50,711 nucleotides of DNA from an uncultured Bacteroidales bacterium (lineage in GTDB: Bacteria > Bacteroidota > Bacteroidia > Bacteroidales > WCHB1-69): NCBI GenBank assembly GCA_900315705.1, contig ONAB01000020.1:1-50711 (forward strand), read 5' to 3'. The translations under genes were made by a program, and so were the position numbers. The number at the start of each line of letters is the position of its first letter. Position 1 is the stretch's first letter. This document shows, one piece after another, positions 17,559 to 50,711 of the stretch. The notes beneath the pieces are model-generated. The model was not told the DNA's origin. It was given only the letters and a program-made list of their open reading frames with translations, and ran no database searches.

Positions 17559-17598
17559 AGTTGCTTTTTAATTTTGTTGGTAATAGATGATTATCGGT

Positions 17599-18045: not shown

Positions 18046-18069
18046 ATTGATGATGTCTTTTTTGATGAA

Positions 18070-19029: not shown

Positions 19030-19056
19030 ATTGTGTTCTGTTTTTGTGGTAATGGG

Positions 19057-23735: not shown

Positions 23736-23837
23736 TTCCTCGGCATTTTTAGTTAGTATAATGCTTCGGAAAAAAGAGAATTGACCCATAGAATGGGCTG
23801 CAACCGGTCTTAACTCCCGAAGCGGTTTTCAAACGAA

Positions 23838-23995
23838 ATGGTAGGTTTTCTGACTTGTCCCTCCTATGGCGTCTTCCCGTCTTGCGACAGTGACTTGGTT
23901 GCTATAGGAACGTAGGGGACTTACAGCAGCGGGTACTGTACAGGATTTGCACCTGTTTCCCTGCGGGTTTTTTCTGTTGAAAAACACCCTCCCAT
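23838..23995 (-). promoter_or_regulatory. Cobalamin (AdoCbl) riboswitch
   Basis: Reading the minus strand, the conserved core appears in order: CAACAG, then CGCAGGGAAACAGGTG, then CAAATCCTG, then GTACCCGCTGCTGTAAG, the CACTG box, GGGAAGACGCC, and the B12 box GACAAGTCAGAAAACCTAC (23841-23859). It sits between its own -7 element (24005) and the BtuG-like start 105 bp further on. Bound cobalamin is expected to turn off the BtuG-like and T9SS-protein genes. The TonB receptor gene lies upstream of the switch and is outside its control. Confidence 0.94.
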
Positions 23996-24004
23996 TTGGC
24001 GCGG

Positions 24005-24012
24005 CAAAAATA
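24005..24012 (-). promoter_or_regulatory. -7 promoter element of the riboswitch transcript
   Basis: The minus strand reads TATTTTTG, about 10 bp before the first conserved riboswitch bases. Confidence 0.65.
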
Positions 24013-31854: not shown

Positions 31855-32853
31855 TTAATTATTTATGCGATTATAATAACCAGATTCACCCCCAATTCCA
31901 ATAACATCACCGTATCCAATCAAATTGCTGCTTTTTAAAGGAACAACCATCGGTTTTCTGGAATATCCATTTTTTGTATATACATAAACATTGTTGTTGT
32001 TATCAGTTCCATAGTAAACGACAGCATGTGAAGAGCTTCCAATTGCGCCAGTTGTTCTGCTAATACAACCATTTTTGGCATATTTATCATACTTACTATT
32101 CATATATAGCGTTTTAGACTCAAATCGAATTATTGTTTTGCCAAACTGAGCCTCAGACCCATCCACACTCTCAAAGTAACTGGACAAATAACTATCGAAT
32201 ATATTAGCACAGGGTATATCACAGCCATTTTCTATTGGTAATCCCAATACCCCATAATAGGAGCTCCCCCAACAATTATAATAATCATCTTTTGCATTAC
32301 TGAAAGATTTAATACTGCGAGTGAATACATTATCAAGTATGACCTTACTTCCAGCTTTAATATTTTCATTAGAATTATACCCTTGCTCAGAGAGTAGAGA
32401 ACCTGCTTCGTCTATTGAACAATGCAAAAAGTCAGCTAGACTTTCCTTGTTATCACCCTCCTCAGCAAAAAGATTACCTTCTATGTCGGGTTTCCAAACT
32501 TCCTCCCCATTCGGATCCACCAACTTCACCGGGTTATTCGCGCAATACGTATAAGGCGACAATGATGGATATTTGTCACTCATCGGATCGACGCTGAGCC
32601 AGATGCTCAAATCGGAGGAATAATATCTTGAACCAAAGTAAGATAAGCCCGTTTCCGTGTCGCGTTCTTTGGCGGAGAAGGTGTGAGAGGAGTGGAGAGT
32701 GGAAAGTGGAGAGTGGAGAGTTGTTGTAGCGTCGGCACATTGTGGCGGCGGTGCTGTAAAGACAGTGTGTCCATAGTCTTCCCATCGTGGCGGCGTTGTG
32801 GCGGAAATGTTTCCGACCTCAAAAGTACAAAAAAAGCCAATTGCATTTATGTA
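31855..32853 (-). CDS. RHS-core orphan tip with LysM-like and NlpC/P60-like amidase domain; frame-blocked start
   Basis: The open frame is 333 codons but has no ATG or GTG; the first start-like codon is a TTG at 32610 inside the RHS core. Domains (numbered from 32610): RHS core end TFSAKERDTETGLSYFGSRYY (before 1) to CANNPVKLVDPNG (about 23-35); a LysM-like stretch EGDNKESLADFLHCSIDEA...IKAGSKVIL (about 51-92); then a papain/NlpC-P60-like tip with likely Cys113 (YYNCWGSSYYG) and His195 (SSSHAVVYYG). An ATG at 32785 sits in another frame, and four 7-bp repeats (32691-32718) lie between it and the core; losing one repeat would join the two. It is phase-variable or a slightly damaged toxin. The target is probably peptidoglycan (inference). 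Confidence 0.65.
   Translation of the reverse strand, partial: YINAIGFFCTFEVGNISATTPPRWEDYGHTVFTAPPPQCADATTTLHSPLSTLHSSHTFSAKERDTETGLSYFGSRYYSSDLSIWLSVDPMSDKYPSLSPYTYCANNPVKLVDPNGEEVWKPDIEGNLFAEEGDNKESLADFLHCSIDEAGSLLSEQGYNSNENIKAGSKVILDNVFTRSIKSFSNAKDDYYNCWGSSYYGVLGLPIENGCDIPCANIFDSYLSSYFESVDGSEAQFGKTIIRFESKTLYMNSKYDKYAKNGCISRTTGAIGSSSHAVVYYGTDNNNNVYVYTKNGYSRKPMVVPLKSSNLIGYGDVIGIGGESGYYNRINN
32691..32718. repeat. Four 7-bp tandem repeats between start codon and RHS core
   Basis: AGTGGAG AGTGGAA AGTGGAG AGTGGAG on the plus strand (CTCCACT units on the coding strand). A 7-bp step shifts the frame by one. Removing one unit joins the ATG at 32785 (reading MGRLWTHCLYSTAATMC...) to the RHS core in frame (...STLHSSHTFSAKERDTETG). 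Confidence 0.75.
32820..32827 (-). promoter_or_regulatory. -7 promoter element for the RHS amidase tip
   Basis: The minus strand reads TACTTTTG (TAnnTTTG), 34 bp before the ATG at 32785. The promoter supports that ATG as the intended start. Confidence 0.5.
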
Positions 32854-33317: not shown

Positions 33318-34619
33318 CTAATCGGTAATATACTTGCTATTACAATTCTTGAGTATAGTATCAATGGTGATGTTATTTAAACCTAAATCAGAAAGTACAC
33401 AACAAATAATCAGACGTCGTACTTTTTGTGTCAAATCATGGAGTTTAAAGCCATCAAGAATATGCTGTTTTCTTTCCCTTGGCATAAAGTGAGCATAATA
33501 GTCTCTTGAATCCACAAGTTCTTCAACATTGATATTATCCTTCTGTATGCATGATATATCAGAAAACTTATCTAAAACAGCCTTCATGCGATTTGTAATA
33601 CTACCCTTGTATTTCGATCGAATGCAGTACCCGTCAAGAGCTCTTGCCAGAATTAGGAAATCCATGTTGCTAAACACTCTTTTCTTTTCCAAGCTATCAA
33701 CAAGATTATTTCTTACAGGATACATATCATTCACGTCCGCATACCAAGACCTCATTATCTCACCGAACCTATCCTTTATTGCATCATATCTCAAAAGGAA
33801 TCTTATAGGATCCACCTTTTCTGTGTCTTTTCCTCTCCAATGACTTGAAAAGAAATAAATGGCATGCAGATACTTTTCCCCATTGCCAAGCTCCTGATAA
33901 TAGTCTTCATCATAAATTGTTATTTCAGAAGCCTCAACTACCCTCATAGTCGCTATTGAAAGAAATTCTTCAAACTTATATAAATGCGACAGCAGCTTAT
34001 TAAAAGAGACCTTATCACTTCTTGATATCTCCAACCATGATGTCTGACCTATCTCATTACTAAGCATGGCAGGATCACCGCCCAGACTTGCTCCAGCCTT
34101 TAACTGAATTTTGTAACCATCATGCAAATCAACATCTGCCAAGGTTTTTCCTCCAAACAAAGACTCAAAAGAAAGGCTGATAATCTGTCCATTGTGCCCT
34201 TTGTTTTCCTGAAATATTTCTCTTAGCACCCCGGGATGGCACCAGTAAGATAACTCAGGGAAATGTATTGCCATCCTGAAACCACCTTCGTCATCCAATC
34301 CAGTATAATGCCGCCCGATGAAACAACACATACAATTGTATCTGATTACTGGAAAGAAACTGGACAAATTCACGCTTCCTGATGGATGACACTTTAAAAG
34401 CGTAACCTTCTTGGCGTTCTCTAAAGCACCATGAATCACAATTTCCTCGGACTTGTTCAAAAAAGCCACAACAGCATCATTCTCTTTATCAAAAGTTCCT
34501 ATCAGTTCAAGGACAATGCTCTCTCCTGGCTTATACGTAAGCACGCCAGCCACCTTATTATCGGGGTTATTAGGTTTCCACCAATACCCTTTATGTTCAA
34601 ATGGTTCGCTAAGCTTCAT
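33318..34619 (-). CDS. ApeA-type HEPN protein (predicted abortive-infection RNase)
   Basis: The 433-aa protein begins with an ApeA_NTD1-like beta domain: FEHKGYWWKPNNPDNKVAGVLTY (G-Y-W-W-P at 11-16), then IVLELIGTF and later FRMAIHFPELSYWC. The C-terminal helical part is a HEPN domain with the RNase motif R-x4-H (Arg372-DYYA-His377 in VDSRDYYAHFM). ApeA proteins are HEPN ribonucleases that abort phage infection. Its start overlaps the end of the STAND gene by 11 nt, so the two are translationally coupled and should work together. No signal peptide is present. Confidence 0.82.
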   Translation of the reverse strand: MKLSEPFEHKGYWWKPNNPDNKVAGVLTYKPGESIVLELIGTFDKENDAVVAFLNKSEEIVIHGALENAKKVTLLKCHPSGSVNLSSFFPVIRYNCMCCFIGRHYTGLDDEGGFRMAIHFPELSYWCHPGVLREIFQENKGHNGQIISLSFESLFGGKTLADVDLHDGYKIQLKAGASLGGDPAMLSNEIGQTSWLEISRSDKVSFNKLLSHLYKFEEFLSIATMRVVEASEITIYDEDYYQELGNGEKYLHAIYFFSSHWRGKDTEKVDPIRFLLRYDAIKDRFGEIMRSWYADVNDMYPVRNNLVDSLEKKRVFSNMDFLILARALDGYCIRSKYKGSITNRMKAVLDKFSDISCIQKDNINVEELVDSRDYYAHFMPRERKQHILDGFKLHDLTQKVRRLIICCVLSDLGLNNITIDTILKNCNSKYITD

Positions 34620-37600
34620 CTTCTTCCTCTACATCATACAATGTCCACCGATGACTGGGGGTTCTTCCAGGCATCATAAAACTCTCTTCTATTTTTTGGC
34701 TCTGCTCACCATATTGTTTTAGCTTGCCTATCTCAAGAACAGCCCAGTTGCTCACTTCCGGGTTAGTATGTTTTGTCAGTGGTTCTATCAATCCCGCCCT
34801 ATCATTGTAAATGCTTGCTGGGCCTGAAAAAGTCCCCAATTTATCACTCAAAGCAGTCCTAACCAGCTTATCACTTCCGTAATTATCCAACAGCATCATT
34901 ACTGGTTCCGACAAGGTATCGCCTTCGGTCAACGGGGCCAAAGCCATTAACATATATGATCCTTCTGGATAAACCTTGCACCAGTCTATCAACATTGTCA
35001 AGTTCTCTTTCTTGAAAATCAATGCAGGGAACGGATTATGTATGGTGCTGAATCCAAAGGCATAATAGAATTTAACAAAATTCTCATCCCCATCCTTTGC
35101 AGACATTAGAGCGGCCATCTCTGTCCAGGTGATTTCAAAATACTTTTCAAACATCACTTGTAGCACTTGCTCTACCTCATACCGCAAAGAGATTTGTTCT
35201 GGAGAGATGACATGATTGAAAATTCCTTTTACTAATGCTTGAGCTAACTCTTTCCGTTCGCCATTAGAGAGCAGTGTAACCAATATGTGTGAATAATATG
35301 AGTACACTACTAGGGTTGTCACATCATCTGCCCTCTTTATCATTTCCTTTTCAAACAGTTCATCCATCTCTGGATGCTTGTTATTGCTGCTCAAATACTG
35401 CGACATTGCCATGTGTAAGGCAACAACAAACGAATCAGGCAGAGAAATAACCTTGGCTAACAAACCCACAGCCTCCGGCGTTGATAGTCTGTCTATGCGA
35501 ACATAATTCCAATAAGTGATAAACATACTACAATCCACGACCTTCTGCTCTACTAACTCAAAGAGTTTATCCACGTATGGATGATCAAAGTTATAGTTCC
35601 TGACTGCAACCAATGAGAACATTAGCCATTGCTTCCCCTTCTCATAGACAACCTCTACTATTCTGGCAAAAACCTCCTCGCTAACTTCTTTCACATAATA
35701 TACGAAAATGCTGTTAGCTCTTTCTTCCAATAAATCGATAGAGTCCGAGGCAAACGTCAGTTGCTCTTCAGGTGTATTCAAAGATGCAAGTTTAATTGCA
35801 AAAGTATGCGGCAAGAAGGTTTGTGTCTGGTATATGTCTTTTAGGAGCTCTTTATTATATAGGTTCTGGCTTGCCATTTCTTCTGCCAGAACTTCATATT
35901 TCCTATTTACAATCTCACTATGCTCTTTGTCTGACAGTCCCAAATAGTCATTACACTCATAGCTTTCCACTTGGGCAAACCGAGAAACGAAGTCCGTTTT
36001 ACTTAATTTTGCAATCAACTGCTCTACTCTCTGCAAATGCTGAGCATACACTCGCGTTTCATCATCTTTTCTCGCAAAATGTAAAACATGCAGCAGGTCA
36101 TCCCATTCATAGTTGAGCATCTCCGCCACATTTTCTACCCTTGGCATAATGAGGTCAAACAGCCCAAAAGAATTTAAAGCACGGAAGTTTGATGCCATCA
36201 TTTTTATACAAGCATCGCTATAATCTGTTTTACTATCTATTTCACTTTGTAACAAATCAAGACAACCCGTAATATAGGGTTCAACCTCCTTCAAATCATA
36301 TGGGTCATAGAATGTATACGTCTTGTGACCAATAATAACATCCCCTCCAAAGCGTATGAAGTTTGTAGTCCAAAGGGCCCTGTCTAATGCTTTCATCAAA
36401 AGGGGCTTTTCTTCCTGACTATTTATCTCAGCCTTTAGAAAGTCCAATCTGGTATTCAAAGGAACGGATGTGGCAGGGAGCCTTACAGGGAATAATGAAA
36501 TAAACTGCCCTGTAGCATTATTTGATATATGCTCCACTTCCGAACATCCCAGTCTTAACATTAATTTGGCTGCTTTCTCAAAGGTTTCCGGCTTATAACA
36601 TAGCTTCTCTAACGTCCACACTAGTTCCCTGCGGCCATCTCTGATTTTCTTCAGTTCATCTAAACCCAAACCTCCCAGCGTATGAAAAAGACTGTCACAC
36701 ACAAAGTCTGGTTCTATTTCCACTAAAGAGCGGTATATTTTTGAGCCTACCTCTGTGTTCAGGAACTCCAATTTTGTTAACAGCTTTCCTGGTTGCAGCA
36801 GCTCTTTTATTAAATCCGACACTTTCTCATTATCCACCGCATCTTTTATTTTGTCAAAGAAAGGGGGTACAAGATTATCGGCCAAACCACTTTCCCTTAA
36901 AGTAAGGATAATGCTCTCCACCTGGGTGGCCGTACATTTTGCAAACCACTCATCATTCAGCATCTTGGAAATAGCAGGTGAGCGGAAACGGACATATACA
37001 CCTACTCTTTGCATCAGCCCCCTATTAAGGTATAGCCTAATCAGAGCATCAAACTTGTTAACCAGAACTGTACCGTCATGATTCAGGCCTGTAATGTTCT
37101 TATTAAGCGCTATAGTTACTATTTCCTTGTGAGCATCACCCTCATATCCAATACTTGAAAATAATGATAGAGTCTCCGCAATAATCCTTTCGTCGCTCCC
37201 ATTAGGGGCAGACAACAGATTTGATACAAGTTTTTGGTTACTGAAATCACGAATGTCGCCTGTATTCTCAATACCTTCAATAGCCTGTACAGTCATTAAT
37301 GGATTCCCGCTGGCAAACTCTTTAATCTTGGTGCTTACTTCATCCTGTTTACCATACAGACGGGCTATAATACCATCCACAACGTCCTCATAAGCATCAT
37401 TAAACCTGGTCACATTATATCCAATTCCTTGTGTTTCTGCCGGATTATCAAATAAAGAATATAACCTGTTTCGGGCTTTTTTACGATAATACAATCTTAG
37501 AATCTTTTCGAACAGAATCTCATCACAGTTGTCCAGTATTAGAACAGCCGCAACTTGTTTTTCAAAAATCTTTGAACTGGTTTCTATAACATCTGGCTCT

Positions 37601-38409
37601 TGGGATATTTGACAGTCGCAATACAATTTAGGCACATCATCCTGTTCGGCTAATATCGTTTCAAGTACCAATCTTGTTTTCCCAATACCATTCAACCCTA
37701 AGACCCTCAGAACACCTTTATTGTCTGAAATAGCCTTTTTTATGTTTCTGAGATTGTCATTAAAAACGAATTTCTTCTTAAAACCAAGTTCTTTCGTTAC
37801 CTGCTCACAGTCTTCATACGGCAACAGTTCATCATGGATATGCTTCAAAGCTGCCTTTGCGGACTTACTGATAGCCACCTTCAGGTCTTCTATAAGTTCC
37901 TTTTCAACTTTTTCAGCCTCAGGTGCATTTTGAGCTGCAAGGCAAAACGTGATGGGGTAACGTTTATGTCGTATATCTACAGGTCGCAAATAATCATTTT
38001 CGCACACATCACCAAACACTGTGTTTGCCACATGAATCACCTGTTCATGACGAAGGTGTCCATCTGCTCTTCCCAACTCATACATCACATTTTCGTTGGG
38101 TCGTTCTCTCAAGTCTGGCTTCTGGTTTGCCCATCTCTGAACCTTGTTAAACTTCTTATCTATGGATATATCTGCAATGAAGATATGGCACTCGTCATTC
38201 CTTTTCAAGCACGTGACAATCATATCCGGAGTACCAGGTTCGCCTCCAGTACCCTGCTTAACCTTAAAAACCACGTCTTTAAGATCACCTCTTCCCTGTA
38301 CTGCATTTGCGGCCTTTTGGATACAAGACAATATAAACTCTTTGTTGTTGAGTTTATCAGTCTTTGAAGACAACTGCCAAGAAAAAAATATATTAAGTAC
38401 GTTTTTCAT
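34609..38409 (-). CDS. TIR-like/STAND NTPase, predicted phage sensor-effector
   Basis: The 1266-aa protein has three parts. (1) A TIR-like domain, about 1-160: IFFSWQLSSKTDK, GEPGTPDMIV, FIADISI and ENVMYELGRADGHLR, where Glu111 occupies the place of the NADase glutamate. (2) A STAND-type P-loop NTPase, about 215-420: Walker A GLNGIGKT (238-245), Walker B VLILDNCDE (289-297). (3) A long alpha-helical solenoid to the C-terminus (about 430-1266), the usual sensor region. The layout equals Avs-type defence proteins: a helical sensor detects a phage protein, the NTPase oligomerises and the TIR effector fires. I do not recognise it as a named Avs family. The next gene starts within its 3' end. Confidence 0.8.
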   Translation of the reverse strand: MKNVLNIFFSWQLSSKTDKLNNKEFILSCIQKAANAVQGRGDLKDVVFKVKQGTGGEPGTPDMIVTCLKRNDECHIFIADISIDKKFNKVQRWANQKPDLRERPNENVMYELGRADGHLRHEQVIHVANTVFGDVCENDYLRPVDIRHKRYPITFCLAAQNAPEAEKVEKELIEDLKVAISKSAKAALKHIHDELLPYEDCEQVTKELGFKKKFVFNDNLRNIKKAISDNKGVLRVLGLNGIGKTRLVLETILAEQDDVPKLYCDCQISQEPDVIETSSKIFEKQVAAVLILDNCDEILFEKILRLYYRKKARNRLYSLFDNPAETQGIGYNVTRFNDAYEDVVDGIIARLYGKQDEVSTKIKEFASGNPLMTVQAIEGIENTGDIRDFSNQKLVSNLLSAPNGSDERIIAETLSLFSSIGYEGDAHKEIVTIALNKNITGLNHDGTVLVNKFDALIRLYLNRGLMQRVGVYVRFRSPAISKMLNDEWFAKCTATQVESIILTLRESGLADNLVPPFFDKIKDAVDNEKVSDLIKELLQPGKLLTKLEFLNTEVGSKIYRSLVEIEPDFVCDSLFHTLGGLGLDELKKIRDGRRELVWTLEKLCYKPETFEKAAKLMLRLGCSEVEHISNNATGQFISLFPVRLPATSVPLNTRLDFLKAEINSQEEKPLLMKALDRALWTTNFIRFGGDVIIGHKTYTFYDPYDLKEVEPYITGCLDLLQSEIDSKTDYSDACIKMMASNFRALNSFGLFDLIMPRVENVAEMLNYEWDDLLHVLHFARKDDETRVYAQHLQRVEQLIAKLSKTDFVSRFAQVESYECNDYLGLSDKEHSEIVNRKYEVLAEEMASQNLYNKELLKDIYQTQTFLPHTFAIKLASLNTPEEQLTFASDSIDLLEERANSIFVYYVKEVSEEVFARIVEVVYEKGKQWLMFSLVAVRNYNFDHPYVDKLFELVEQKVVDCSMFITYWNYVRIDRLSTPEAVGLLAKVISLPDSFVVALHMAMSQYLSSNNKHPEMDELFEKEMIKRADDVTTLVVYSYYSHILVTLLSNGERKELAQALVKGIFNHVISPEQISLRYEVEQVLQVMFEKYFEITWTEMAALMSAKDGDENFVKFYYAFGFSTIHNPFPALIFKKENLTMLIDWCKVYPEGSYMLMALAPLTEGDTLSEPVMMLLDNYGSDKLVRTALSDKLGTFSGPASIYNDRAGLIEPLTKHTNPEVSNWAVLEIGKLKQYGEQSQKIEESFMMPGRTPSHRWTLYDVEEEDEA

Positions 38410-38457
38410 AAACTATAGAGTTTACATACCAGTACGGCTTGATACATTAATAAACTA

Positions 38458-39471
38458 CTATTGACACCATGGGTATTTTATTTTGACTACACCTTCTTCA
38501 GCTAATACCTGCTCAGCCACTTTGATTCTTTGTTTAGCGGCCTCAACAATATTGAGTTTCAAGTCTATCATCTGTCGGTAATACTCCATATCGCCTACTT
38601 CTCTTCTTTTTTTCTCATATATTTGAATATCACCTTGCTTGTCCTTGATAATTCTTTTACTGCTGTCAATTACACCCAGTGCTTGGTTGACGGAATCGCC
38701 CTTCCATTTATTCTTGAAAGCCTCTACATCATAAAGATATTGACAATGCTCTTTCTCTAACCTCCACAAGTCAAAATAGTCCGTCTGCCTCATGAGTTCC
38801 AAAGCACAATCTCCATTAGATGGGTTGGCCTCAATAAAAGCCTCCAACTGATTCAAAGAGACAATATCCTCTTTGGGGAACTTCCTGTTTAGTGAGATAA
38901 GAAATTTATAGATAGATTCAAATTGCACTTGGGTAACATCATAGCTTTTTGCAAAGTCTATATCCTCTTGTGTTGCTTCAAGCAAAATGTTGTCTATAGA
39001 GTACAGAAGTTTTGATTTGTGTATGTCCTCCGGAGAACATAGTTCGTAATTCTCTACAAGGTCAAGGCAAACGTAATCATAACACTGCGCCACATATTTA
39101 GCGCACATCTGTCGGTTCTCGTTTGGTACCACTTTTTTCCCATTTTTCATCGCTATTAGAGCCTTTGTGTCGTATAATGTTCCCACAAATGTCCTAGCAT
39201 AAGTTATCAAGTCCCGTATTCTCCAGTCATTTCTGTATTCGTCCTTAAGCCTCATTATACACGCGGCCTCATCTTCTTCCAATAATATGCGACTGGGATT
39301 CTTTGTGATAACAATACTCGATGCATGTAAGATAGAATCATACCAGTAAAGCATAGCATGAGAGAACTGGCTCTTAGTACGCTTTTGTATCTCTCTACTT
39401 CTTTTGTCATTGTACCCTACAAGGATAATATCTCCCGGCAATAGAAAACCGACATTTATTTTATATAACAT
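38458..39471 (-). CDS. Permuted papain-like (YiiX/NlpC-P60 type) protein of the defence run
   Basis: The 337-aa protein begins with the circularly permuted papain-fold order of YiiX/YebB-like proteins: LLPGDIILVGYND (about 10-22) and the His motif SQFSHAMLYWYDSILHAS (His38), and later the Cys helix RQMCAKYVAQCYDYV (Cys123). The C-terminal third is helical with a probable coiled coil (about 265-325). There is no signal peptide, so it acts in the cytoplasm, perhaps as a protease, amidase or acyltransferase. It lies 48 bp upstream of the STAND gene on the same strand and is probably co-transcribed. The link to defence is by position. Confidence 0.7.
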   Translation of the reverse strand: MLYKINVGFLLPGDIILVGYNDKRSREIQKRTKSQFSHAMLYWYDSILHASSIVITKNPSRILLEEDEAACIMRLKDEYRNDWRIRDLITYARTFVGTLYDTKALIAMKNGKKVVPNENRQMCAKYVAQCYDYVCLDLVENYELCSPEDIHKSKLLYSIDNILLEATQEDIDFAKSYDVTQVQFESIYKFLISLNRKFPKEDIVSLNQLEAFIEANPSNGDCALELMRQTDYFDLWRLEKEHCQYLYDVEAFKNKWKGDSVNQALGVIDSSKRIIKDKQGDIQIYEKKRREVGDMEYYRQMIDLKLNIVEAAKQRIKVAEQVLAEEGVVKIKYPWCQ

Positions 39472-40433: not shown

Positions 40434-40464
40434 TTTGCTTGTATTAGAAATTTTTGTATTTTTG
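40434..40464 (+). promoter_or_regulatory. -33/-7 promoter of the IetAS-like pair
   Basis: TTTG (40434-40437), a 19-bp spacer and TATTTTTG (40457-40464) form a near-ideal Bacteroidetes promoter, 19 bp before the start codon. Confidence 0.7.
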
Positions 40465-40483
40465 CAGAAATTTTCAAAACTGT

Positions 40484-41668
40484 ATGGATTCGAATTTTGT
40501 TATTATTCAGGCACTTTGCCGTTCGGCCCTGGCTTCTACTAGAGAAATGACAGAGCATCAAATGGAGCGTCTTATAGATAACTATAGGAAGAATGGCAAG
40601 GATAAGGAGGCAAAATCGTTGGAAGGTATCTTGATTCAGGCGCGCAAGATGCAGCCAATGGAGCCGCTGAACTTTGTTATTTCCTCCATGGAAGGCGATA
40701 TCTTGACTAAAAACACAACGATACCTGTTGACAAGGAGACAGCAACACCAATTCTGGAAATTATTTTTCAAGATGATTTGGAACAAGAGGAGCCTATTTT
40801 CAACGATTCCATAAAGATGGCGGTTGATGCTATCGTGAACGAATGGAGAAACTATGACAAATTGGTTCAACTCAAGGCTTCTCCATCAAGGTCTTGTTTG
40901 ATTTATGGTGATCCAGGCACAGGTAAAACAATGCTTGCCAAATGGATTGCAAAATCAGTTGGGCTTCCAGTTGTTCTGGCCAAGCTTGATGGTATTATTT
41001 CATCATTTCTTGGTACCAGTTCCAGAAACATTGCAAACCTTTTCCGCTTTGCCAATAGACATAAGTGCATTTTGCTGTTAGATGAGTTTGATGCATTGGC
41101 TAAACTACGAGACGACCCTCAAGAAATCGGTGAAGTGAAGAGAATTGTCAACACTTTGCTCCAAAATCTTGATGTACGCTCGGAAAAGGGATTTACAATC
41201 GGGATTACGAATCATGAGAAACTGTTAGACCCGGCTGTATGGAGAAGATTTGATGTACAAATAGATATACCACATCCCAGTCCCTTGGTTCGGGAAAAGA
41301 TGCTTGCAAAATTCATTTTTCCGCTTGAATATTCACAACCTGAGTTGAAGTTTATAAGCTGGTGTATGAATGATGCCACAGGTGCTGATTTACGTAAACT
41401 CAGCGATTGGCTTAAAAGAGTACACATACTCGAAGAATCAGAAATCCATAATTTGCCCACATTGATGAGTCTTTTTGCAACAATGAATATGGGTAGAGTG
41501 CCGAAGAGAATCATAGAACTACTGAACGGTGACTTGGCAGATTTATGCAAAGAACTTACCAGTAATGAATTCCTTCAACTGAAACAAAAGGACATTGCGG
41601 CTTTGTTCGAAATGTCTCCGTCAACTTTAAGTAAACTCATCTCAAAAAACAATAAAAATGGCAGATAA
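40484..41668 (+). CDS. AAA+ ATPase, IetA-type partner of a subtilase
   Basis: The ATG at 40484 gives 394 aa (an earlier in-frame ATG at 40454 lies upstream of the -7 element). A helical N-terminus is followed by a FtsH/Cdc48-type AAA+ module: Walker A GDPGTGKT (142-149), Walker B ILLLDEFDAL (196-205), sensor-1 TNHEKLLDPAVWRRFD with the arginine finger. The tail (KQKDIAALFEMSPSTLSKLISKNNK) looks like a small helix-turn-helix. The next gene, a subtilase, starts 11 bp before the stop. AAA+ ATPase with S8 subtilase is the IetAS arrangement, known from Agrobacterium Ti-plasmid incompatibility and as a phage-defence module. Confidence 0.85.
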   Translation: MDSNFVIIQALCRSALASTREMTEHQMERLIDNYRKNGKDKEAKSLEGILIQARKMQPMEPLNFVISSMEGDILTKNTTIPVDKETATPILEIIFQDDLEQEEPIFNDSIKMAVDAIVNEWRNYDKLVQLKASPSRSCLIYGDPGTGKTMLAKWIAKSVGLPVVLAKLDGIISSFLGTSSRNIANLFRFANRHKCILLLDEFDALAKLRDDPQEIGEVKRIVNTLLQNLDVRSEKGFTIGITNHEKLLDPAVWRRFDVQIDIPHPSPLVREKMLAKFIFPLEYSQPELKFISWCMNDATGADLRKLSDWLKRVHILEESEIHNLPTLMSLFATMNMGRVPKRIIELLNGDLADLCKELTSNEFLQLKQKDIAALFEMSPSTLSKLISKNNKNGR

Positions 41669-44015
41669 TCAGATACAGTTTGTTCTTAATCCCAGATCCT
41701 TCATCGGGGATAAAGATTTGGTTAATGGATTTGGCCCGAACAAGGACTACTATGTCGGCAAAGACAACGAGTTTGTTGCCCACAAGGGAAATCTTGTTCA
41801 AGGATTGGTATCTATAGGTGTGGCCAGCCGAAGTAATCCATATTCTAGAGTTGCTTATGCCAAGGTGAAGATGCGTAGCGATGCTATTGCAAAGACTCAT
41901 CGTCCAACAAAGTCGATCTTTACTGTGAATAAGAGGAGTTATGTGGTAGGTGGAGCTGGTGTTGGCGAACTTCTTGTAGAAATGCATCCTGGATCAATAG
42001 AAAAAACAGTGCAGGCTATCAATAGGGCAGAGAATGTGACGCGAGAGAAGCCATCAAGAGCAAGATCGGAAGTTGGAGGTATACAGTCCATACAACTCTA
42101 TTCTTCAGAGGATAGGGTGCCGTTTACCCTAGCTGAAGTGTCGGCTTGGAAGGAAGAAGGTCTCGTTTCTAATGGCTATTATGTTAACATATTCCGTCCT
42201 CTATATGCGCTTTTCGAACCGATGCAATTGTCAGAAGATTTCAGAAACCTACTTCAATCTTTTAAAGATCATTTGGATTCTTTCCCTTATGTGAGCTACA
42301 AGGAACTTATGACTTCAGGACGAGGTGGGCAGGTGTTTGTGCATATTGAATCGGACACCGAGGACGATTATGCGGTTAAGAATGCCGAATTGCTGGATTT
42401 CCTGTCCGGACATCCATTAGTAAGAAAAGTTTCTGCAGCTCCTTCGATATCATCGTTTACTTCTTCAGAAGGAATAGGGTTGGATGTGGATGTTGCAGCC
42501 CCGAATGATATTTCAATGTTTCCAATTGTAGGAGTCATAGACAATGGTATATCAGAAATTTTTGATGGATGGAAGGTCTATGAATGGTCGGAATTGCCTG
42601 ATGATTTTAGAGTGGAAGACCACGGAAGCAAGGTGGCTGGGCTGCTGGTTAAGGGTAACAGCCTGAATGGCGAGGACCTTGTGCCCGAAAAGGATGGCTG
42701 CAGATTGGCAGATTTATGTGTGATTCCTTCAGATGGCAAATGGAAAGAAGTTTATCCACTAGGTGCGGAGAATTTTTTTGAGTCACTGATGAGTGCTGTG
42801 GAAGAGGCGAAGGAAAAATCTGGTGCAAGAATATTCAATATAAGTGTAAACCAAAAGGGAAGAATCCCCTCTGAAGGGTGGTATAGTGTGGCAGCCAAGA
42901 AATTTGATGAAATAGCTGATATGTTGGATGTACAGTTTGTCATATCGGCAGGAAATCTTCCCATAGACCAGTTGCGTGGTGAATGGATTCCAGCTGATCC
43001 TGAACAGAATATTGGCAGTTTGCTTCCAGAGCATTTAGCGCTTCCTCCGGCTGAGAGCCTCAGGGGTATAAGTGTGATGGCTCTTAATCCTAATGATCAA
43101 TCTCCAACGTCATATACGTTAATAGGTCCTGCTTATCAGGCCGGTGTGAAGCCTGACGTTGCTTATATCGGTGGATCTGCTGAAGATAATTCCGGGTTAT
43201 CTTCAATCAATATGACGGGCCAAAAGATATTAGTAAGCGGTACGAGTATGTCAGCACCTCTGGTTGCGAAGATTATGGCTGCTGTTGATAATAAGATAGG
43301 CGGGAATGCTCCCTTTGAATTGCTTAAAGCCCTATTAATTCATCATGCCCGATATCCTGACGTGATTATGGATGAGGTGTATGATGATGCCAAAAAAAAA
43401 CTCTATGGGTTTGGTGTACCGTCTTCTTCTGAAAAAATCCTGATGGAGGATGACCATTCATTCACCTTTGTGGTGTCCGAAAGTATTCCTTCAGACAAAA
43501 AACTGAGCTTGTCATTCCCGTGGCCTGATTCTTTAAAGAGACCTGGTGGTAAATGTAGAGGTAAAGTTAAACTTACACTCGTTAGCCGTCCTTTATTAGA
43601 TGATTCTTTTGGTGAGGAACTGGTAAGAGAGAATATAACAGCCTACTTGAGGGCGGGCACGGCTGATGGTAAGAAGAAGGGCCTCATGAGATTCGTGTTC
43701 TCGGATGTTAACGAAGAAGAATCAGCAGAAGAGGAGAACCTCATTAAGGATGCTTTTAAATGGAATCCTGTCAAGGTTTCACATGCGAATCTCAAGCATA
43801 AGAAAATTGACGGTGATGTTTTTTTGGAGATAGAATATCTTTCCCGTGAAGGTTTGGCTCCCAATTTCGATGGCGTGCCATTTGCTGCCATTCTCACAAT
43901 ATCTGATCCGAAAGGAGAGGCTCCTGTTAACAGAGAGATGAAGGCAGCCTTGCAGGCTATTGGTGTTCAATTGTCTGATATACAAGTTGCCGCACAGGTT
44001 AGAGGACAGATTTAA
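41658..44015 (+). CDS. S8 subtilisin-like serine protease, IetS-type
   Basis: The 785-aa protein has no signal peptide, so it is cytoplasmic, unlike most subtilases. The catalytic triad is complete: Asp295 in IVGVIDNG, His322 in EDHGSKVAGLL and Ser530 in SGTSMSAPLVAK, with oxyanion Asn in ISAGN. The N-terminal 270 aa are a beta-rich region specific to this group, and the C-terminal 220 aa a jelly-roll-like part. It overlaps the AAA+ gene by 11 nt, so production is coupled. In IetAS the protease is thought to be the toxic component held or directed by the ATPase. Confidence 0.86.
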   Translation: MADNQIQFVLNPRSFIGDKDLVNGFGPNKDYYVGKDNEFVAHKGNLVQGLVSIGVASRSNPYSRVAYAKVKMRSDAIAKTHRPTKSIFTVNKRSYVVGGAGVGELLVEMHPGSIEKTVQAINRAENVTREKPSRARSEVGGIQSIQLYSSEDRVPFTLAEVSAWKEEGLVSNGYYVNIFRPLYALFEPMQLSEDFRNLLQSFKDHLDSFPYVSYKELMTSGRGGQVFVHIESDTEDDYAVKNAELLDFLSGHPLVRKVSAAPSISSFTSSEGIGLDVDVAAPNDISMFPIVGVIDNGISEIFDGWKVYEWSELPDDFRVEDHGSKVAGLLVKGNSLNGEDLVPEKDGCRLADLCVIPSDGKWKEVYPLGAENFFESLMSAVEEAKEKSGARIFNISVNQKGRIPSEGWYSVAAKKFDEIADMLDVQFVISAGNLPIDQLRGEWIPADPEQNIGSLLPEHLALPPAESLRGISVMALNPNDQSPTSYTLIGPAYQAGVKPDVAYIGGSAEDNSGLSSINMTGQKILVSGTSMSAPLVAKIMAAVDNKIGGNAPFELLKALLIHHARYPDVIMDEVYDDAKKKLYGFGVPSSSEKILMEDDHSFTFVVSESIPSDKKLSLSFPWPDSLKRPGGKCRGKVKLTLVSRPLLDDSFGEELVRENITAYLRAGTADGKKKGLMRFVFSDVNEEESAEEENLIKDAFKWNPVKVSHANLKHKKIDGDVFLEIEYLSREGLAPNFDGVPFAAILTISDPKGEAPVNREMKAALQAIGVQLSDIQVAAQVRGQI

Positions 44016-44302: not shown

Positions 44303-44941
44303 ATGGAAGACACGAAAAACAAGTTTGAAATCACCTACAGGAACGTGGACGAGCTTGTCGAGCCCGACTACAATCCCCGGAAAATCACGGCGAAGCAGAA
44401 GGAGGACATCCGCAAGTCCATAGAACGCTTCGGCTTCGTGCAGCCCATCGTGGTAAATGTCAACCCTGACAGAAAGGATATTGTCATCGGCGGCAACCAG
44501 CGGCTCAAAATAGCCAAGGGGATGGGCATCGAGACGGTCCCGTGCTACGAAGTCAACCTCAATGAAACGGATGAGAAGGAACTCAACCTGCGTCTCAACA
44601 AGAACCAGGCGGAGTTCGACATCGACATGCTGCGCACCTACTTCGACAAGCAGTTCCTCTTCGATGTCGGTTTCTCTGAAAAGGAAATCGGCAGGATAGA
44701 GAGCGAGTTCGAGAAGAAGTTCAACGCCGTGACCAACGACAACTGCGAGATGCCGATAGTCGCGCAGTTCAACGAGCGGTACGACACCGTGATGATATTC
44801 TGCAACAACGAACTGGACTTCAACTGGATGCGGAACGTGCTGAACCTCAAGCCCAACCAGGACTACAAGAACAGCAAGGTCGGCGAGGCGCACGTGATGA
44901 CAGTGCAGGAGTTCCAACAAATATGGGAGGAGGCCATGTGA
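44303..44941 (+). CDS. Phage-type ParB/Srx-domain protein
   Basis: The 212-aa protein has a ParB N-terminal domain (about 10-100): LVEPDYNPRKI, QKEDIRKSIERFGFVQPIVVN, then IGGNQRLKIAKGMGIETVPCYEV with the G-G-N-Q-R motif. The C-terminal part (about 100-212) is unassigned. Chromosomal partition ParB proteins are larger and have an HTH core; this short form is typical of phages and of DNA base-modification clusters. The next gene, a TET-associated glycosyltransferase, begins 1 bp after the stop. Base composition is higher in GC than the defence genes to its left, so it arrived separately. Confidence 0.8.
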   Translation: MEDTKNKFEITYRNVDELVEPDYNPRKITAKQKEDIRKSIERFGFVQPIVVNVNPDRKDIVIGGNQRLKIAKGMGIETVPCYEVNLNETDEKELNLRLNKNQAEFDIDMLRTYFDKQFLFDVGFSEKEIGRIESEFEKKFNAVTNDNCEMPIVAQFNERYDTVMIFCNNELDFNWMRNVLNLKPNQDYKNSKVGEAHVMTVQEFQQIWEEAM

Positions 44942-44942
44942 G

Positions 44943-45332
44943 ATGACACCGACAACGATTAAGATAGTGTGCCCGTCAAAGGGCAGGGCGGACAATGTGA
45001 GGACGCTCAAACTCATTCCCACCCTATCGCTCGTTGTGCCCTACGACGAAGCCGACGACTACAGGAAGAATTATCCCGACACGGAAGTGCTGGCCATCCC
45101 TGAACGCATAAAGGGCATCACGCCGACACGCCAATGGATATTGGAGCTATACGCCGACGAGGACGTGTTCATGATTGATGATGACGTGACCTCCGTAAGG
45201 CGCAACTTCGTGTTTGGGGACCAGGAGATTTCCGTCACCGACCCGGAGACAATCCACGACATCATTGAGACAACCACTATAATTGCGCGGCTTGAGGGCG
45301 CGAAGGTGTTCTCTTTCTCCAAGATCTTATAA
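44943..45332 (+). pseudogene. Truncated TET-associated glycosyltransferase (TAGT) of phage origin
   Basis: The 129 aa match the start of TAGT-type glycosyltransferases: IKIVCPSKGRADNVRTLKLI, VVPYDEADDYRKNYP, then ITPTRQWILELYADEDVFMIDDDVTSVRR with the D-D-D metal/sugar-nucleotide motif (about 78-80). The frame ends after FSFSKIL, where the family continues for about 100 more residues. TAGT genes next to ParB occur in phage clusters that hypermodify DNA bases. Truncation coincides with the RHS leader scar 77 bp further on, so recombination at the RHS cassette probably removed the rest. Confidence 0.7.
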
Positions 45333-46313: not shown

Positions 46314-47260
46314 TCTACTTTGATTTCAGCATTAGTATCTATAGGAGCAGAACCGTTAATGTAGTCAATCCTCACCTTTGCTCCTTCCACATCGAGACCA
46401 TTGTTATCTAGCATATACTTGATTATCATACGGATGTCGTCATTAGAAATATCTTTCATTTCAAAACCATTGTCTGGAGTGGCAGTGTATTCCATTCTTC
46501 CCTCTGAAGGGTAATATGGTTTTCCTTTATCATCAAGACCTAACAAATGAAGAATTTCATGGGAAATTAGTTTATGATAATCAATAAACCTTGTATTTTT
46601 CCAGATATTCATTGAAAAATATTTTCCCGAGGACGTTTGTCCTCCAGTTATGTGGATTTTCCCCGACTCTGTTTCCCGGCTCTTCTCTATTTCTGTTGAA
46701 CCCATAAAAGCGTTTCCGTAGCAACCATCATCTCTTGCTTGGTCGATGGCATTAACAATCATCATGTCTTTCTCAGATAAATTTCTATGGTAGTCCTCTC
46801 TTTTCTTGGAATCTGGAGCGACAGGATTGATGGCAAATTTCAAAGTGTATTCCACACCATCAACTGTCACTACTTTTGTGATGTCGTTGATCTCCTTGAC
46901 AGCGGGCAACAGTTTGTCGTACGCTTCTTGCGAAGCTGTATAAATATTCATCTGAATTGTGATGGTTTTGTTTTCACCAGAATTATCTATAACTACAACA
47001 AAATCGCTTCCGTCCACATCCACCATCTTTATCGGATTGTCCGCACAGAACTGATAGGGGCTCAGCGACGGGTACTTTGCCGCTTTTCTGTCTATGCCCC
47101 ACCACCGTCCCAGCCTCGTGTCATACTGCCGGAATTCGTACCCAGTCAAACCTCCTTCCACAAACACCTCATTATCAACCTCCTGCCCATTGAAAAAGTA
47201 CCGATAACCCCCCATAGCGGGAAGAGGGAATTTTGGCGGGTATGTGGCGGTGTGGATCAT
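46310..47260 (-). CDS. RHS orphan tip with metzincin-type zinc protease domain
   Basis: The 316-aa protein starts with the leader [15 protein letters not shown], continues with the end of the RHS core ([52 protein letters not shown], about 16-86), and ends in a unique domain (about 90-316). That domain carries HEILHLLGLDD (234-244): His234, His238 and Asp244 are expected zinc ligands and Glu235 the general base, the HExxHxxGxxD form of metzincins. It lacks the long RHS barrel, so it is a displaced tip that would need to recombine into, or be expressed apart from, a full RHS gene. The coupled gene downstream is the likely immunity. Confidence 0.8.
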   Translation of the reverse strand: MIHTATYPPKFPLPAMGGYRYFFNGQEVDNEVFVEGGLTGYEFRQYDTRLGRWWGIDRKAAKYPSLSPYQFCADNPIKMVDVDGSDFVVVIDNSGENKTITIQMNIYTASQEAYDKLLPAVKEINDITKVVTVDGVEYTLKFAINPVAPDSKKREDYHRNLSEKDMMIVNAIDQARDDGCYGNAFMGSTEIEKSRETESGKIHITGGQTSSGKYFSMNIWKNTRFIDYHKLISHEILHLLGLDDKGKPYYPSEGRMEYTATPDNGFEMKDISNDDIRMIIKYMLDNNGLDVEGAKVRIDYINGSAPIDTNAEIKVE

Positions 47261-47281
47261 GGCGTTAATGGTGCAAAGATT
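47217..47281 (-). repeat. RHS-tip leader, copy 2 (promoter-like box, start codon, first codons)
   Basis: The plus-strand stretch from GCGGGAAGAGGG through GGATCATGGCG is nearly identical to 48766-48821. On the minus strand it has a -7-like AATCTTTG (47274-47281), an ATG and the codons for [14 protein letters not shown], fused to the RHS core Met-Gly-Gly-Tyr-Arg. Confidence 0.8.
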
Positions 47282-47388
47282 GGATTTTTTTGGTTCGTGT
47301 GATGATGAAGTTGTGGTTTGGCGACAACGGGGAGTAATTTAGGACAATGATCAGAAGCAATTGAAAAATTCAGGCATACAATCAAATA

Positions 47389-47904
47389 CTATTTCTGTTT
47401 CTTAAGTTTTATGTCTTTCATATACACCTCATTCTCCGCCTCGTACCCAGCAGGTAGTGTGTCATGCAAAACAAATGTGGGAACCACGATGACCTTTTCT
47501 CCATAAATACCAGACGTGGGATACTTGTATCGAATTATTGATAACAGAGAATCCTCGCTATACTGCAAAACCTCCACCTTGTAAACCCAATCTTGCTCAT
47601 GAAAATCCGACATAAAATAATCCTTATTCTTATTATGGAACAAAGAATCAGGAGTATAGTAATAAGCTAACATCCAATACGCCTTCTCAATACACTTGAC
47701 TTGTTTCCCTTTGCTGTATAATCTATATGGTCGTATGGTGTCACCGTTCCAATTGTAGCAGTATTTCACCTCAATGGCTTTACGCTTGAACCATTCTTTG
47801 TCAATAGCGATTCCAACAATGGGACCGACAACAAATGTACCGATTAGGAAAAACAGCAGCATCGGGACAGGGTATTTTTTTATTATTATGTCTGTAGGCC
47901 ACAT
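47389..47904 (-). CDS. Membrane-anchored protein, candidate immunity partner of an RHS tip
   Basis: The 171-aa protein has one N-terminal membrane helix (PVPMLLFFLIGTFVVGPIVGIAI, about 12-34) and a soluble part with no recognised domain. It starts 5 bp after the stop of the preceding RHS tip on the same strand, as expected for an immunity gene. Function is by position only. Confidence 0.55.
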   Translation of the reverse strand: MWPTDIIIKKYPVPMLLFFLIGTFVVGPIVGIAIDKEWFKRKAIEVKYCYNWNGDTIRPYRLYSKGKQVKCIEKAYWMLAYYYTPDSLFHNKNKDYFMSDFHEQDWVYKVEVLQYSEDSLLSIIRYKYPTSGIYGEKVIVVPTFVLHDTLPAGYEAENEVYMKDIKLKKQK

Positions 47905-47909
47905 ATTTA

Positions 47910-48809
47910 TTATGATTTGTTGTCCTTCACTTCCTGTTGATAATCCTCACTTTCCCATTGAGGATTGGTTGGAGTACCAACATTATTCATTTTAATGGAT
48001 GTTTTAATTTCAAATTCTTTGAAAGGATGAAGCCAATTCCCATGCTGTGTGTATTTTAGATAATTCTTCCCATCAACTTGGTATACATCTAAATCAGGAT
48101 TTAGGTCATCATATTCTAATCCTTTATTATTAATTAGCTTTCGCAGACGGGTCTGTTCTTCGTATGTTATAGAAAATGATGACTTTATTTTGGTCTCGGT
48201 AGTAGTAGCCACCGCACCAATTCCAACACCCACACTTGCACCAAAATACCAATCCTGATCCCTTGCTTCAACGGATCCTCTACAAATTGGTGCTAAATCC
48301 AAAGATGTAATGCTACCATTTGAAAATGCTTGACTAAAAGTCTTGGCGCCGAAGTCAATACCATAGTGTTTCTTTACACCAACAAGTAATAATCCCCCAA
48401 CGGATTCCTTGTCTGAAATTTCAAATGTGGAATAATAGTGAAAAAATGTAATCCCAAAAGCATCATAGGCTCTTCCTTCGCCTCGTGCATAATTCCATCC
48501 ATATTGTGCGATACCACCAGCACTATTAAATTCTTTCGTGCTGAACACAACTTCCAGCCCTTCCAACTCCATCCCGTCCACAACCCTGTTCTCCGCAAAC
48601 GCATACGTGCTGTTCCACGGGAATTTGGCGGCCAAGGGGTCCACACTCCAAAATCTCCCTATCCGCGTGTCGTGCATACGGTACTCGAAAGCGTGCAAGG
48701 CCCCTTCTCCAAACACCTCATTATCAGCCTCCTGCCCGTTGAAGAAGTACCGATATCCCCCCATAGCGGGAAGAGGGAATTTTGGCGGGTATGTGGCGGT
48801 GTGGATCAT
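47910..48809 (-). CDS. RHS orphan tip with unrecognised C-terminal toxin domain
   Basis: The 299-aa protein carries the shared leader ([15 protein letters not shown]), the RHS-core end ([51 protein letters not shown], about 16-82) and a unique C-terminal region (about 83-299). The unique part has no motif I can name; a Gly/Ala-rich stretch ([14 protein letters not shown], about 190-203) could insert into or cross a membrane. The candidate immunity gene begins 5 bp after the stop. Confidence 0.75.
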
Positions 48810-48821
48810 GGCGCGAAGATA
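48766..48821 (-). repeat. RHS-tip leader, copy 3
   Basis: Same leader as 47217-47281. The -7-like element on the minus strand is TATCTTCG (48814-48821), one mismatch from TAnnTTTG. It overlaps the 5' upstream gap and abuts the preceding gene's stop at 48828. Confidence 0.8.
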
Positions 48822-48827
48822 GGAATT

Positions 48828-49448
48828 TTATTCACACTTGTCGAAAGGATCATGTCCGAATGTTGTGATTCTCCCGTGTGTTATTTTGAGCAGAAAAGGG
48901 ACTTTGCGTAATAAATATTGGCGTTCTTCAGGGCGTGTCACCTGAAACACAGGTTCCTGATACTCTGTTTCCAAAAGTCCTATACCATGATTTGATGATG
49001 AATTATGGGATGGAGGAGCCCCTATGTTGTCCGTGTCAAAATGGCACGCCAGCAAATACAACTTATCTGACGTGAGTTCCAAGAACAAACGTGATTCGAC
49101 AGAATCATAGACAAATTGAAGACGATATAATCCGGATAGGGTTCCTTCGCCTTCTTTCACTTCCAAATACGGGAGCCCATCGCGCATAACCACTTTCCAA
49201 GGTGAGGCACCATCGTTTTTATGTCTTTTCATTGATTCTGGGTCCAGTTCCATTAACAGGAGTGTTTTATTGTTATATAACTCCAAAGAGGGAAACTTGA
49301 AATCATAAAATGCACAAGGATCTTCGTTAATCTTGATTTTTACCACTGTCCAAAGACCTATCAAGTTGTTCGAAATTGTGTCTTTTGTGCAGCCACTCAG
49401 AACAATTGCAAATTGGAGCAACATTCCTATAAATAATATCTTTTTCAT
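48828..49448 (-). CDS. Lipoprotein, candidate immunity partner of the edge RHS gene
   Basis: The 206-aa protein has a lipobox signal (ILFIGMLLQFAIVLSGC, Cys20). The body starts like a lipocalin-type 'LIGLWTVVKI' strand (about 29-38) followed by LELYNNKTLLLMEL and YRLQFVYDSVESRLFLELT; a small beta barrel of the lipocalin-like/DUF4923-type group is possible but not certain. Its ATG overlaps the upstream RHS stop by 4 nt (ATGA), so the two are coupled, as for toxin and immunity. Confidence 0.65.
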   Translation of the reverse strand: MKKILFIGMLLQFAIVLSGCTKDTISNNLIGLWTVVKIKINEDPCAFYDFKFPSLELYNNKTLLLMELDPESMKRHKNDGASPWKVVMRDGLPYLEVKEGEGTLSGLYRLQFVYDSVESRLFLELTSDKLYLLACHFDTDNIGAPPSHNSSSNHGIGLLETEYQEPVFQVTRPEERQYLLRKVPFLLKITHGRITTFGHDPFDKCE

Positions 49449-50711
49449 TCTTTATTTCGATTTGGGTCTAACGGCCTCATTCTTCCTGTTTGATTGAAAA
49501 TCTTTATGCCAATTTCATATATTTTAGGATCTTCTGTGTAGTTTTTCCCAAATAGAATCACATTCATAATCTTTGCAAGGGAAAGGGGATTCATATATTT
49601 CTGAGGGATGAATTGCTGATTGGGATCTTTCAATATCTTGTCGATGTCCTTTTCCACCATCTGTACGTATTCTTCCTGTTTTTTGATAATTTGATTCTCT
49701 TTATAGGCAGAATACAGTAAACCATAATAAAAAGCTTCATTAAGAACAGTGACAGTCAACATCCCTCCTATGACATATTTTGTGGAAGAACGGGGGGTGC
49801 CAACAAATTGTGGCTTAAATCTTTTATCGGGCATAGTATAATTTGAGGATTTTGTTTTAGGAACCGTTATTCGTTGAATAATTGGATTATGGGCGGGATC
49901 TGTTGCTCCGTATGTGTTATCCATTTGAGGAATGGGAACGTCAATTCCTTTAAACATAAATTGAAAAGAATGTTGTTTCGTGCTAATGCCAATATCCCGA
50001 CAGCCAGTTTCACTGTTATACGTCCAATTGTTGATGTCTTTGACGGAGGCCATATACATTTTTTTGCATAACGGTGAAAGATTTTCAGTGTTAATGTAAG
50101 CGCCGTCAGATTGAAATACCCATCGACAAACGTCAGCATCCAAATATTCCAGTCCCTCCAACTCTCTTCCGTCCACAACCCTGTTCTCCGCAAACGCATA
50201 CACACTGTTCCACGGGAACTTCCCCGCCAGCGGGTCCACGCTCCAGAACCGCCCGATGCGGGTGTCGTGCATGCGGTACTCGAAAGCGTGCAAGGCCCCT
50301 TCTCCAAGCACCTCATTATCAACCTCCTGCCCATTGAAAAAGTACCGATAACCCCCCATAGTAAAACTTCGGCCCGGCATAGGGAAGCCGAAGGGGTAGT
50401 AATCGGTGTAGGTGACAGCGAATGGAATGAACTGCCACTGACCATAACTGTCTTGCACAAGGTGCTTTCGGTCTTGTGCTGTGTAGGTCACATTGCCCAA
50501 ATGATCCGTAAATTCATAAACACGAGCCCCAATCGTGTTGGAATCCTGCAGCCAAGTGCTGTTTGCCGTTATCCAGACCTGCTGCTCCAACACACCCAGA
50601 CGCTTGCTGCCATACAGATACCGCTCTGTGGCTCTCAAGGTGTCTCCATTCTGCCGATAAATGCACATCACATTGCCTGTGGCATCGTGAATGTAGAAAG
50701 TCACTCCCGAG
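49445..50711 (-). CDS. RHS-repeat protein, C-terminal part; continues past the window
   Basis: The frame is open to the window's right edge. Visible parts: RHS/YD-repeat core (FYIHDATGNVMCIYRQNGDT, YEFTDHLGNVTYTAQD), the core end ([50 protein letters not shown]), and a unique tip of about 235 aa. The tip has one hydrophobic segment (VIGGMLTVTVLNEAFYYGLL) and no recognised catalytic motif. Unlike the orphan tips, it has true RHS sequence (YTDYYPFGFPMPGRSFT) before [11 protein letters not shown], so it is probably the in-frame tip of the full-length RHS gene that feeds this array. Confidence 0.85.
   Translation of the reverse strand, partial: SGVTFYIHDATGNVMCIYRQNGDTLRATERYLYGSKRLGVLEQQVWITANSTWLQDSNTIGARVYEFTDHLGNVTYTAQDRKHLVQDSYGQWQFIPFAVTYTDYYPFGFPMPGRSFTMGGYRYFFNGQEVDNEVLGEGALHAFEYRMHDTRIGRFWSVDPLAGKFPWNSVYAFAENRVVDGRELEGLEYLDADVCRWVFQSDGAYINTENLSPLCKKMYMASVKDINNWTYNSETGCRDIGISTKQHSFQFMFKGIDVPIPQMDNTYGATDPAHNPIIQRITVPKTKSSNYTMPDKRFKPQFVGTPRSSTKYVIGGMLTVTVLNEAFYYGLLYSAYKENQIIKKQEEYVQMVEKDIDKILKDPNQQFIPQKYMNPLSLAKIMNVILFGKNYTEDPKIYEIGIKIFNQTGRMRPLDPNRNKE

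Follow-up and report, generated by a model that had tools for sequence, protein, structure and literature searches.

Among described systems, the nearest to the central gene of the locus considered here is PD-Lambda-4, in which a protein A with a STAND/repeat core is accompanied by a partner protein B. A table of PMC10952713 credits PD-Lambda-4 to Vassallo et al. 2022; the name is absent from the main text of PMC9519451 and, as a term, is rare in the literature searched. A second point of reference is the TIR-STAND-TPR protein of P4 satellites, which passages of PMC9122126 present as a single-gene defence, validated by others, and in which context P2-like phages and P4 satellites are described as carrying exchangeable defence cargo (PMC9122126). 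For the C92 family of papain-like proteins, the Pfam description is that of an amidase. ApeA is said to have been described by Gao et al. In a commentary on that paper, ApeA is stated to comprise HEPN domains (a passage of PMC7699616); a 2013 survey records it as embedded in type I restriction-modification operons of epsilonproteobacteria (a passage of PMC3710099), and a preprint, cited by its title in PMC13405049, has deoxydinucleotides activating an ApeA. The window, by which is meant the whole stretch of 50,711 bases analysed here, carries side by side a C92 papain-like protein, a TIR-like protein with a PD-Lambda-4_A-type STAND core and an ApeA-type protein.

Layout and setting of the run

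The sequence-only reading had described three minus-strand genes, and these are indeed present and intact: a papain-like gene is followed after 48 bp by a TIR-like/STAND gene, which overlaps an ApeA-type HEPN gene by 11 nt (Table 1). The motif positions given with them (His38, Cys123, Glu111, Walker A 238-245 and R372-x4-H377) likewise agree in numbering with the alignments. The overlap in itself is unremarkable, since 7 of the 25 adjacent same-strand pairs among mechanically chosen ORFs of the window overlap, and IetA and IetS next to the run do so by 11 nt too. Matches to a Bacteroidetes-type promoter pattern number 3 in the window against 0.87 expected, none of them directly before the run, and sigma-70-type matches number 33 against 18.9 in shuffles; there are 3 terminator-like matches (5.0 in shuffles), with none of these 3 in the gap of the run. 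The STAND and ApeA genes probably share a single transcript, which would amount to co-expression, not to a shared signal.

Table 1. Positions of the genes, domains and motifs of the run and of its divergent neighbours, in window coordinates.
Feature	Position	Strand	Remarks
Papain-like gene	38458-39471	minus	337 aa, ORF open
His38 codon	39358-39360	minus	predicted catalytic, invariant in 7/7 aligned rows
Cys123 codon	39103-39105	minus	predicted catalytic, invariant in 7/7 aligned rows
TIR-like/STAND gene	34609-38409	minus	1266 aa, ORF open
TIR-like domain	37840-38409	minus	residues 1-190 of STAND protein
Glu111 codon in NVxxELG	38077-38079	minus	predicted catalytic, invariant in 7/7 TIR-like rows
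Walker A GLNGIGKT	37675-37698	minus	residues 238-245
STAND stop / ApeA start overlap	34609-34619	minus	11 nt, ATGAAGCTTAG
ApeA-type HEPN gene	33318-34619	minus	433 aa, ORF open
HEPN motif R372-x4-H377	33489-33506	minus	R372 and H377 invariant in 5/5 rows
IetA (AAA ATPase) and IetS (S8 peptidase), not in run	40454-44015	plus	11-nt overlap, PADLOC

The run is adjoined by a divergent IetAS pair (PADLOC: IetA 1.6e-148, IetS 4.3e-208). GC3 is 0.32-0.50 for the ORFs from 31262 to the end of the window and 0.63-0.81 for 10 of the 13 ORFs at 6960-30968, the exceptions being 13354-15649 (two ORFs, 0.37-0.38) and 17587-19062 (0.53). Most simply, then, the run lies in a horizontally gained defence island. 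The 50,711 bases also form the start of a contig of 50,967 bases (C1) in a second genome, G063, of another genus. By tetranucleotides, with 5 and 6 contigs sampled, the stretch from 20 to 32 kb resembles its own genome (0.78-0.88, against 0.38-0.54 for G063) and that from 32 to 50 kb resembles G063 (0.77-0.90, against 0.03-0.42 for its own genome), with the first 20 kb favouring neither. One of the two bins may be wrong, or the contig may carry an island, or it may be chimeric.

Several other features of the window were recorded. At the island edge, a low-GC minus-strand segment at 31855-32610 is, on our reading and with no Pfam hit, a possible Rhs/YD-repeat C-terminal piece. Beside IetAS, at 44303-45332 on the plus strand, a ParB_N piece of 212 aa and, 1 base further on, a TET-associated glycosyltransferase (TAGT) piece of 129 aa together resemble a split phage-type DNA-modification gene. 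A second defence-like pair, of low GC, is found at 2783-4593 on the plus strand, where an AAA_21/AbiLi-like ATPase overlaps a 246-aa gene by 4 nt; a tRNA-Ser (150-237) lies about 2.5 kb away. Repeats 87-95% identical occur at 47154-47264, 48552-48813 and 50147-50361, within a gene row (47154-50361) that gave no Pfam or PADLOC match where scanned, and a cobalamin riboswitch (23823-24006, minus, 88.2 bits) stands just upstream of a DUF5074/NHL gene.

The three proteins and their relatives

The papain-like protein scores 33.5 bits with the Pfam family PF05708, Peptidase_C92, for which the cut-off is 27, and, as far as its sequence tells, is a permuted papain-like member of the C92 (YiiX/YaeF-like) family; a sequence search for solved relatives gave no convincing match. 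Its gene occurs in 2 of 295 genomes of the order (the window's own included), and relatives were found at 18 viral loci and in 96 plasmid records. Phage records held a papain match in 1 record and no match to STAND or ApeA. At one locus (L068) the papain gene stands between baseplate and tail-completion genes as named by PHROGs, and at two others (L070, L071) likewise by similarity of the neighbours, a setting which we take to be the P2-like layout. Elsewhere, papain genes lie beside an integrase (L066), near AbiH genes (L011, L075) and, in a pair of related plasmids from Rhizobium (L014, L015), downstream of IetAS-like genes. Membership of an IetAS module was rejected for the papain gene, given that the association is seen at only those 2 of 25 papain loci and that the window's gene is divergent from IetAS; the pairing is accordingly treated as co-residence in an island.

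In the TIR-like/STAND protein, Pfam placed no family above its cut-off, with the CAP12 TIR sub-threshold at 13.9 of 24.7 bits, and a sequence search for solved relatives gave none at E<=1. In the structural check proposed for the TIR-like domain, residues 1-190 are predicted to be TIR-like with SfSTING as best match, but the TIR and DNPH1 rows are tied within 1 Z. DNPH1, a nucleotide N-hydrolase (8rpt_B), scores 11.6, so that the fold by itself does not settle the substrate. In that comparison the domain comes closest to divergent TIRs, such as those of TIR-STING and SPARTA. Glu111, presumably the TIR catalytic glutamate, is also present throughout a wider alignment (20 of 20 rows), a biased count in that 17 of these rows came from a retrieval by two patterns, of which one includes the NVxxELG motif. 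In Walker A, G238, G241, G243 and K244 are invariant in all 10 aligned rows, and the C-terminal part of the protein reads from its sequence as a helical repeat.

Residues 203-1241 match the PADLOC model PDLC03991 (PD-Lambda-4_A) at E=5e-26. At E<=0.1, PADLOC, the library of which presumably holds Avs models, returned for this protein two models of PD-Lambda-4_A and, at chance level, a Cas7, and nothing else. With no Avs profile among these hits, identity with Avs (AVAST) is not indicated. In the Foldseek list for a low-confidence model of residues 1-470 (pLDDT 56.7), Avs4 comes at rank 14, amid AAA+ and NLR proteins; across the 50 rows shown, these NLR-type, Avs4 and many AAA+ matches all have TM-scores <=0.40, too weak to be used. 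Within the family, 2 of 105 genomes have the STAND gene (its own and the identical contig); the figures are 3 of 392 for the order, 4 of 395 for the class, where 1 of the 4 matches is in the TIR-like part only, and 9 of 392 for the phylum, the own genome being included in each of these counts. A word-based scan of genomes gave only the identical contig as a close relative, and one of viral contigs with a single-protein query gave no close STAND or papain relative.

The third protein is of ApeA type by PF18862 ApeA_NTD1 (151.3 bits, 4.7e-44) and PF18739 HEPN_Apea (48.1 bits, 2e-12), both above cut-off, and by PADLOC PDC-S58 (3e-48). Its gene occurs in 4 of 392 genomes of the order, its own included, and a sequence search for solved relatives produced no convincing match.

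Co-location in relatives and the readings of the run

Relatives' loci with their flanks, taken from plasmids, genomes and viral contigs, were tallied with HMMs for the four modules at E<=1e-5, the HMMs being built in part from the same relatives. Neither ApeA nor papain occurs at any of 20 STAND loci, which is, for this sample, the outcome of the adjacency count called for by the sequence-only reading. STAND, papain and TIR-like genes are absent from all 12 ApeA loci, and ApeA, papain and the STAND core from all 22 TIR-like loci; among 25 papain loci, none holds STAND or ApeA, and a single one (L010) has a TIR-like gene ~5 kb off, with two IS91-family transposases between. The only other copy of the run found is on the identical contig. 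As to sampling, the first scan gave 18 STAND, 12 ApeA, 25 papain and 21 TIR-like loci, with 2 STAND and 1 TIR-like added later. The loci are a non-random sample in which near-copies are counted (L011/L012, L014/L015, L068/L070, L077/L078 and L104/L105). Among 52 plasmid records with a match to the STAND protein, those fetched were 8 in which the core matches and a further 2 matching in the TIR-like part only (L007, L010); for papain they were 6 of 96 and for ApeA 1 of 3. Every locus from the alignment-based viral scans (18, 8 and 20) entered the tally, as did the genome-search matches. Two of the contigs, L009 and L047, are short, L019, with its STAND gene in two ORFs, is described only, and informative flanks are available for only two TIR-STAND fusions besides the window's (L037, L115).

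Within these sampling limits, the tally rejects one coupled three-gene system. Of the view with which the analysis began, the genes, domains and motifs stand, and their coupling into one system is not supported, the families being apart at 20 STAND, 12 ApeA and 25 papain loci. From these counts, and from the TIR-like loci, it is probable that three families which are apart in the distinct relatives examined are stacked in the run, each likely to be anti-phage alone, and not coupled. With the adjoining IetAS, the whole is best read as a stacked defence island, in which the single-gene defences would be separate and a pair of them probably co-expressed. The relatives' settings argue for the same conclusion: some relatives occupy prophage cargo gaps by themselves, some are next to integrases (as are ApeA genes at L086 and L087, a TIR-like gene at L098 and, by similarity, others at L099, L100 and L102), and some are guests in restriction-modification operons. 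Counted on the same side is the validation of TIR-STAND-TPR by others as a single-gene defence (a passage of PMC9122126).

The operons bear also on the meaning of tight spacing. ApeA lies within type I restriction-modification operons at L045 and L082, and at L082 overlaps HsdS by 4 nt, showing that tight coupling to an unrelated gene occurs. In another such operon (L115, 1341-15391) the TIR-STAND gene starts two bases after HsdS. Such spacing, therefore, indicates co-expression at most, and suggests that, within a defence island, functional partnership is poorly predicted by tight gene overlap. Two of the 20 STAND loci, both in restriction-modification operons, have a HEPN-type gene other than ApeA within 300 bp: at L030 a PD-T7-3-like gene (PADLOC; no Pfam hit) 43 bp upstream, and at L035 an Abi_2 gene 291 bp downstream. 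PD-T7-3 is listed under HEPN in a passage of PMC10952713, and Abi2 is included in a passage of the HEPN survey PMC3710099. Taken together, L115, L030, L035, L045 and L082 suggest that restriction-modification operons repeatedly host STAND genes and HEPN-type genes.

If the three genes are indeed separate, each would have its own mode of action. For TIR-STAND, a phage product may be bound by the C-terminal repeats, upon which the STAND NTPase would oligomerise and cluster the TIR-like domains, whose Glu111 would then break down NAD+ or a related nucleotide and so stop growth. With ApeA, a small ligand made in infection would activate a dimeric HEPN RNase (R372, H377), and host RNA would be cut. 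The papain-like protein may be a Cys123/His38 hydrolase carried as defence cargo.

Against separate genes it can be held that L030 and L035 do have a HEPN-type neighbour, and that a young partnership would escape the tally, given the overlap, the 48-bp gap and the lack of any close copy but the identical contig. The alternative that survives best, and which we nonetheless consider unlikely, is a unit of TIR-STAND and ApeA with two effectors, where, once phage is sensed, a nucleotide signal made by the TIR-like domain, or docking of ApeA by the STAND assembly, would switch on the HEPN RNase as second effector; if true, one receptor would drive two killing activities at once. It is consistent with the 11-nt overlap, with the similar GC3 of the two genes (0.41 and 0.37), with the HEPN-type neighbours at those 2 of 20 STAND loci, with few near relatives in which a recent pairing could be seen, and with Thoeris, whose TIR signals to a separate effector (a passage of PMC9122126). 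It is weakened by the lack of ApeA at all 20 STAND loci and of STAND at all 12 ApeA loci, and by the ApeA gene that overlaps HsdS instead; activation by deoxydinucleotides, as in the preprint's title, moreover needs no STAND partner. Similarly doubtful is its more specific form, a young, lineage-specific unit in which the TIR-like STAND receptor is translationally coupled to ApeA, such that one signal leads to both nucleotide depletion and RNA cleavage.

Far less probable is that the papain-like protein is a protease which activates ApeA or TIR-STAND, as trypsin-like proteases do in Hachiman and AVAST. The 48-bp spacing on the same strand would fit, as would the nuclease-protease principle itself, which exists for Hachiman and AVAST nucleases (PMC12799240); neither STAND nor ApeA, however, is found at any of 25 papain loci, and C92 is, per Pfam, an amidase family. 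Decay of the run into an inactive island piece, brought to mind by fragmentary-looking neighbours (the Rhs-like piece, on our reading, at 31855-32610 and the ParB_N/TAGT pieces at 44303-45332), is hardly credible for three open genes with lengths like their relatives' and with the examined catalytic motifs kept.

Comparison with PD-Lambda-4 and other known systems

In the relatives examined the three-gene run does not recur, and the pairing of a TIR-like module with the STAND core does, as follows from L037, L009, L115, L005 and L019. A TIR-like domain is fused to the core in the window, L037, L009 and L115, and on two rhizobial plasmids (L005, L019) the TIR-like module is a gene of its own, placed shortly downstream of STAND. 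In a tree of 20 cores, the window, L037 and L009 form one group (support 99/99), with L115 outside it on a long, unsure branch; a single origin of all four is possible. Other cores bear other N-termini. Of 16 aligned proteins, the window's included, 10 show at the N-terminus a D-G-rich motif and, after it, FQxKA or a similar string; by eye, and not from a profile hit, we read this as a predicted PD-(D/E)xK-type nuclease signature. The N-terminus of L018 is an alpha/beta hydrolase by Pfam, its relative L017 aligning with it there; for an E. coli relative of this alpha/beta-hydrolase STAND no DNA match was found. The overall picture suggests that N-terminal effectors can be exchanged on the PD-Lambda-4-type STAND core, which would serve as a chassis for a predicted nuclease-like domain, an alpha/beta hydrolase or a TIR-like domain.

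What is new is modest, namely the swap of a TIR-like effector onto a PD-Lambda-4-type core. In literature on ApeA, HEPN, STAND, TIR, NLR and YiiX/papain defence, searched by titles and the starts of abstracts, with few preprints or subscription journals and no supplements, the arrangement was not found among the matches listed. PADLOC named no PD-Lambda-4 B among the neighbours scanned, a result which is meaningful only if its library has a B model.

Set against known systems, then, the papain-like protein is a Peptidase C92 or YiiX/YebB-like cysteine hydrolase in its Pfam match above cut-off and its retained His and Cys, but falls far under the cut-off of the YiiX equivalog (17.3 of 216 bits). 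The HEPN protein shares ApeA_NTD1, HEPN_Apea and the R-x4-H motif with ApeA and Apea-like HEPN proteins, and is an ordinary member at 21-30% identity to four aligned relatives, differing from ApeA elsewhere in its STAND neighbour, which is present at none of the 12 other loci. The P4-satellite TIR-STAND-TPR protein has the same kinds of domain, as compared through the description in passages of PMC9122126. With PD-Lambda-4 protein A, the central protein shares the STAND/repeat core (residues 203-1241, PDLC03991, 5e-26), but the first 205 model positions are unmatched: the match begins at model position 206, whereas that of L034 spans positions 4-1278, and in the window a TIR-like domain stands in their place.
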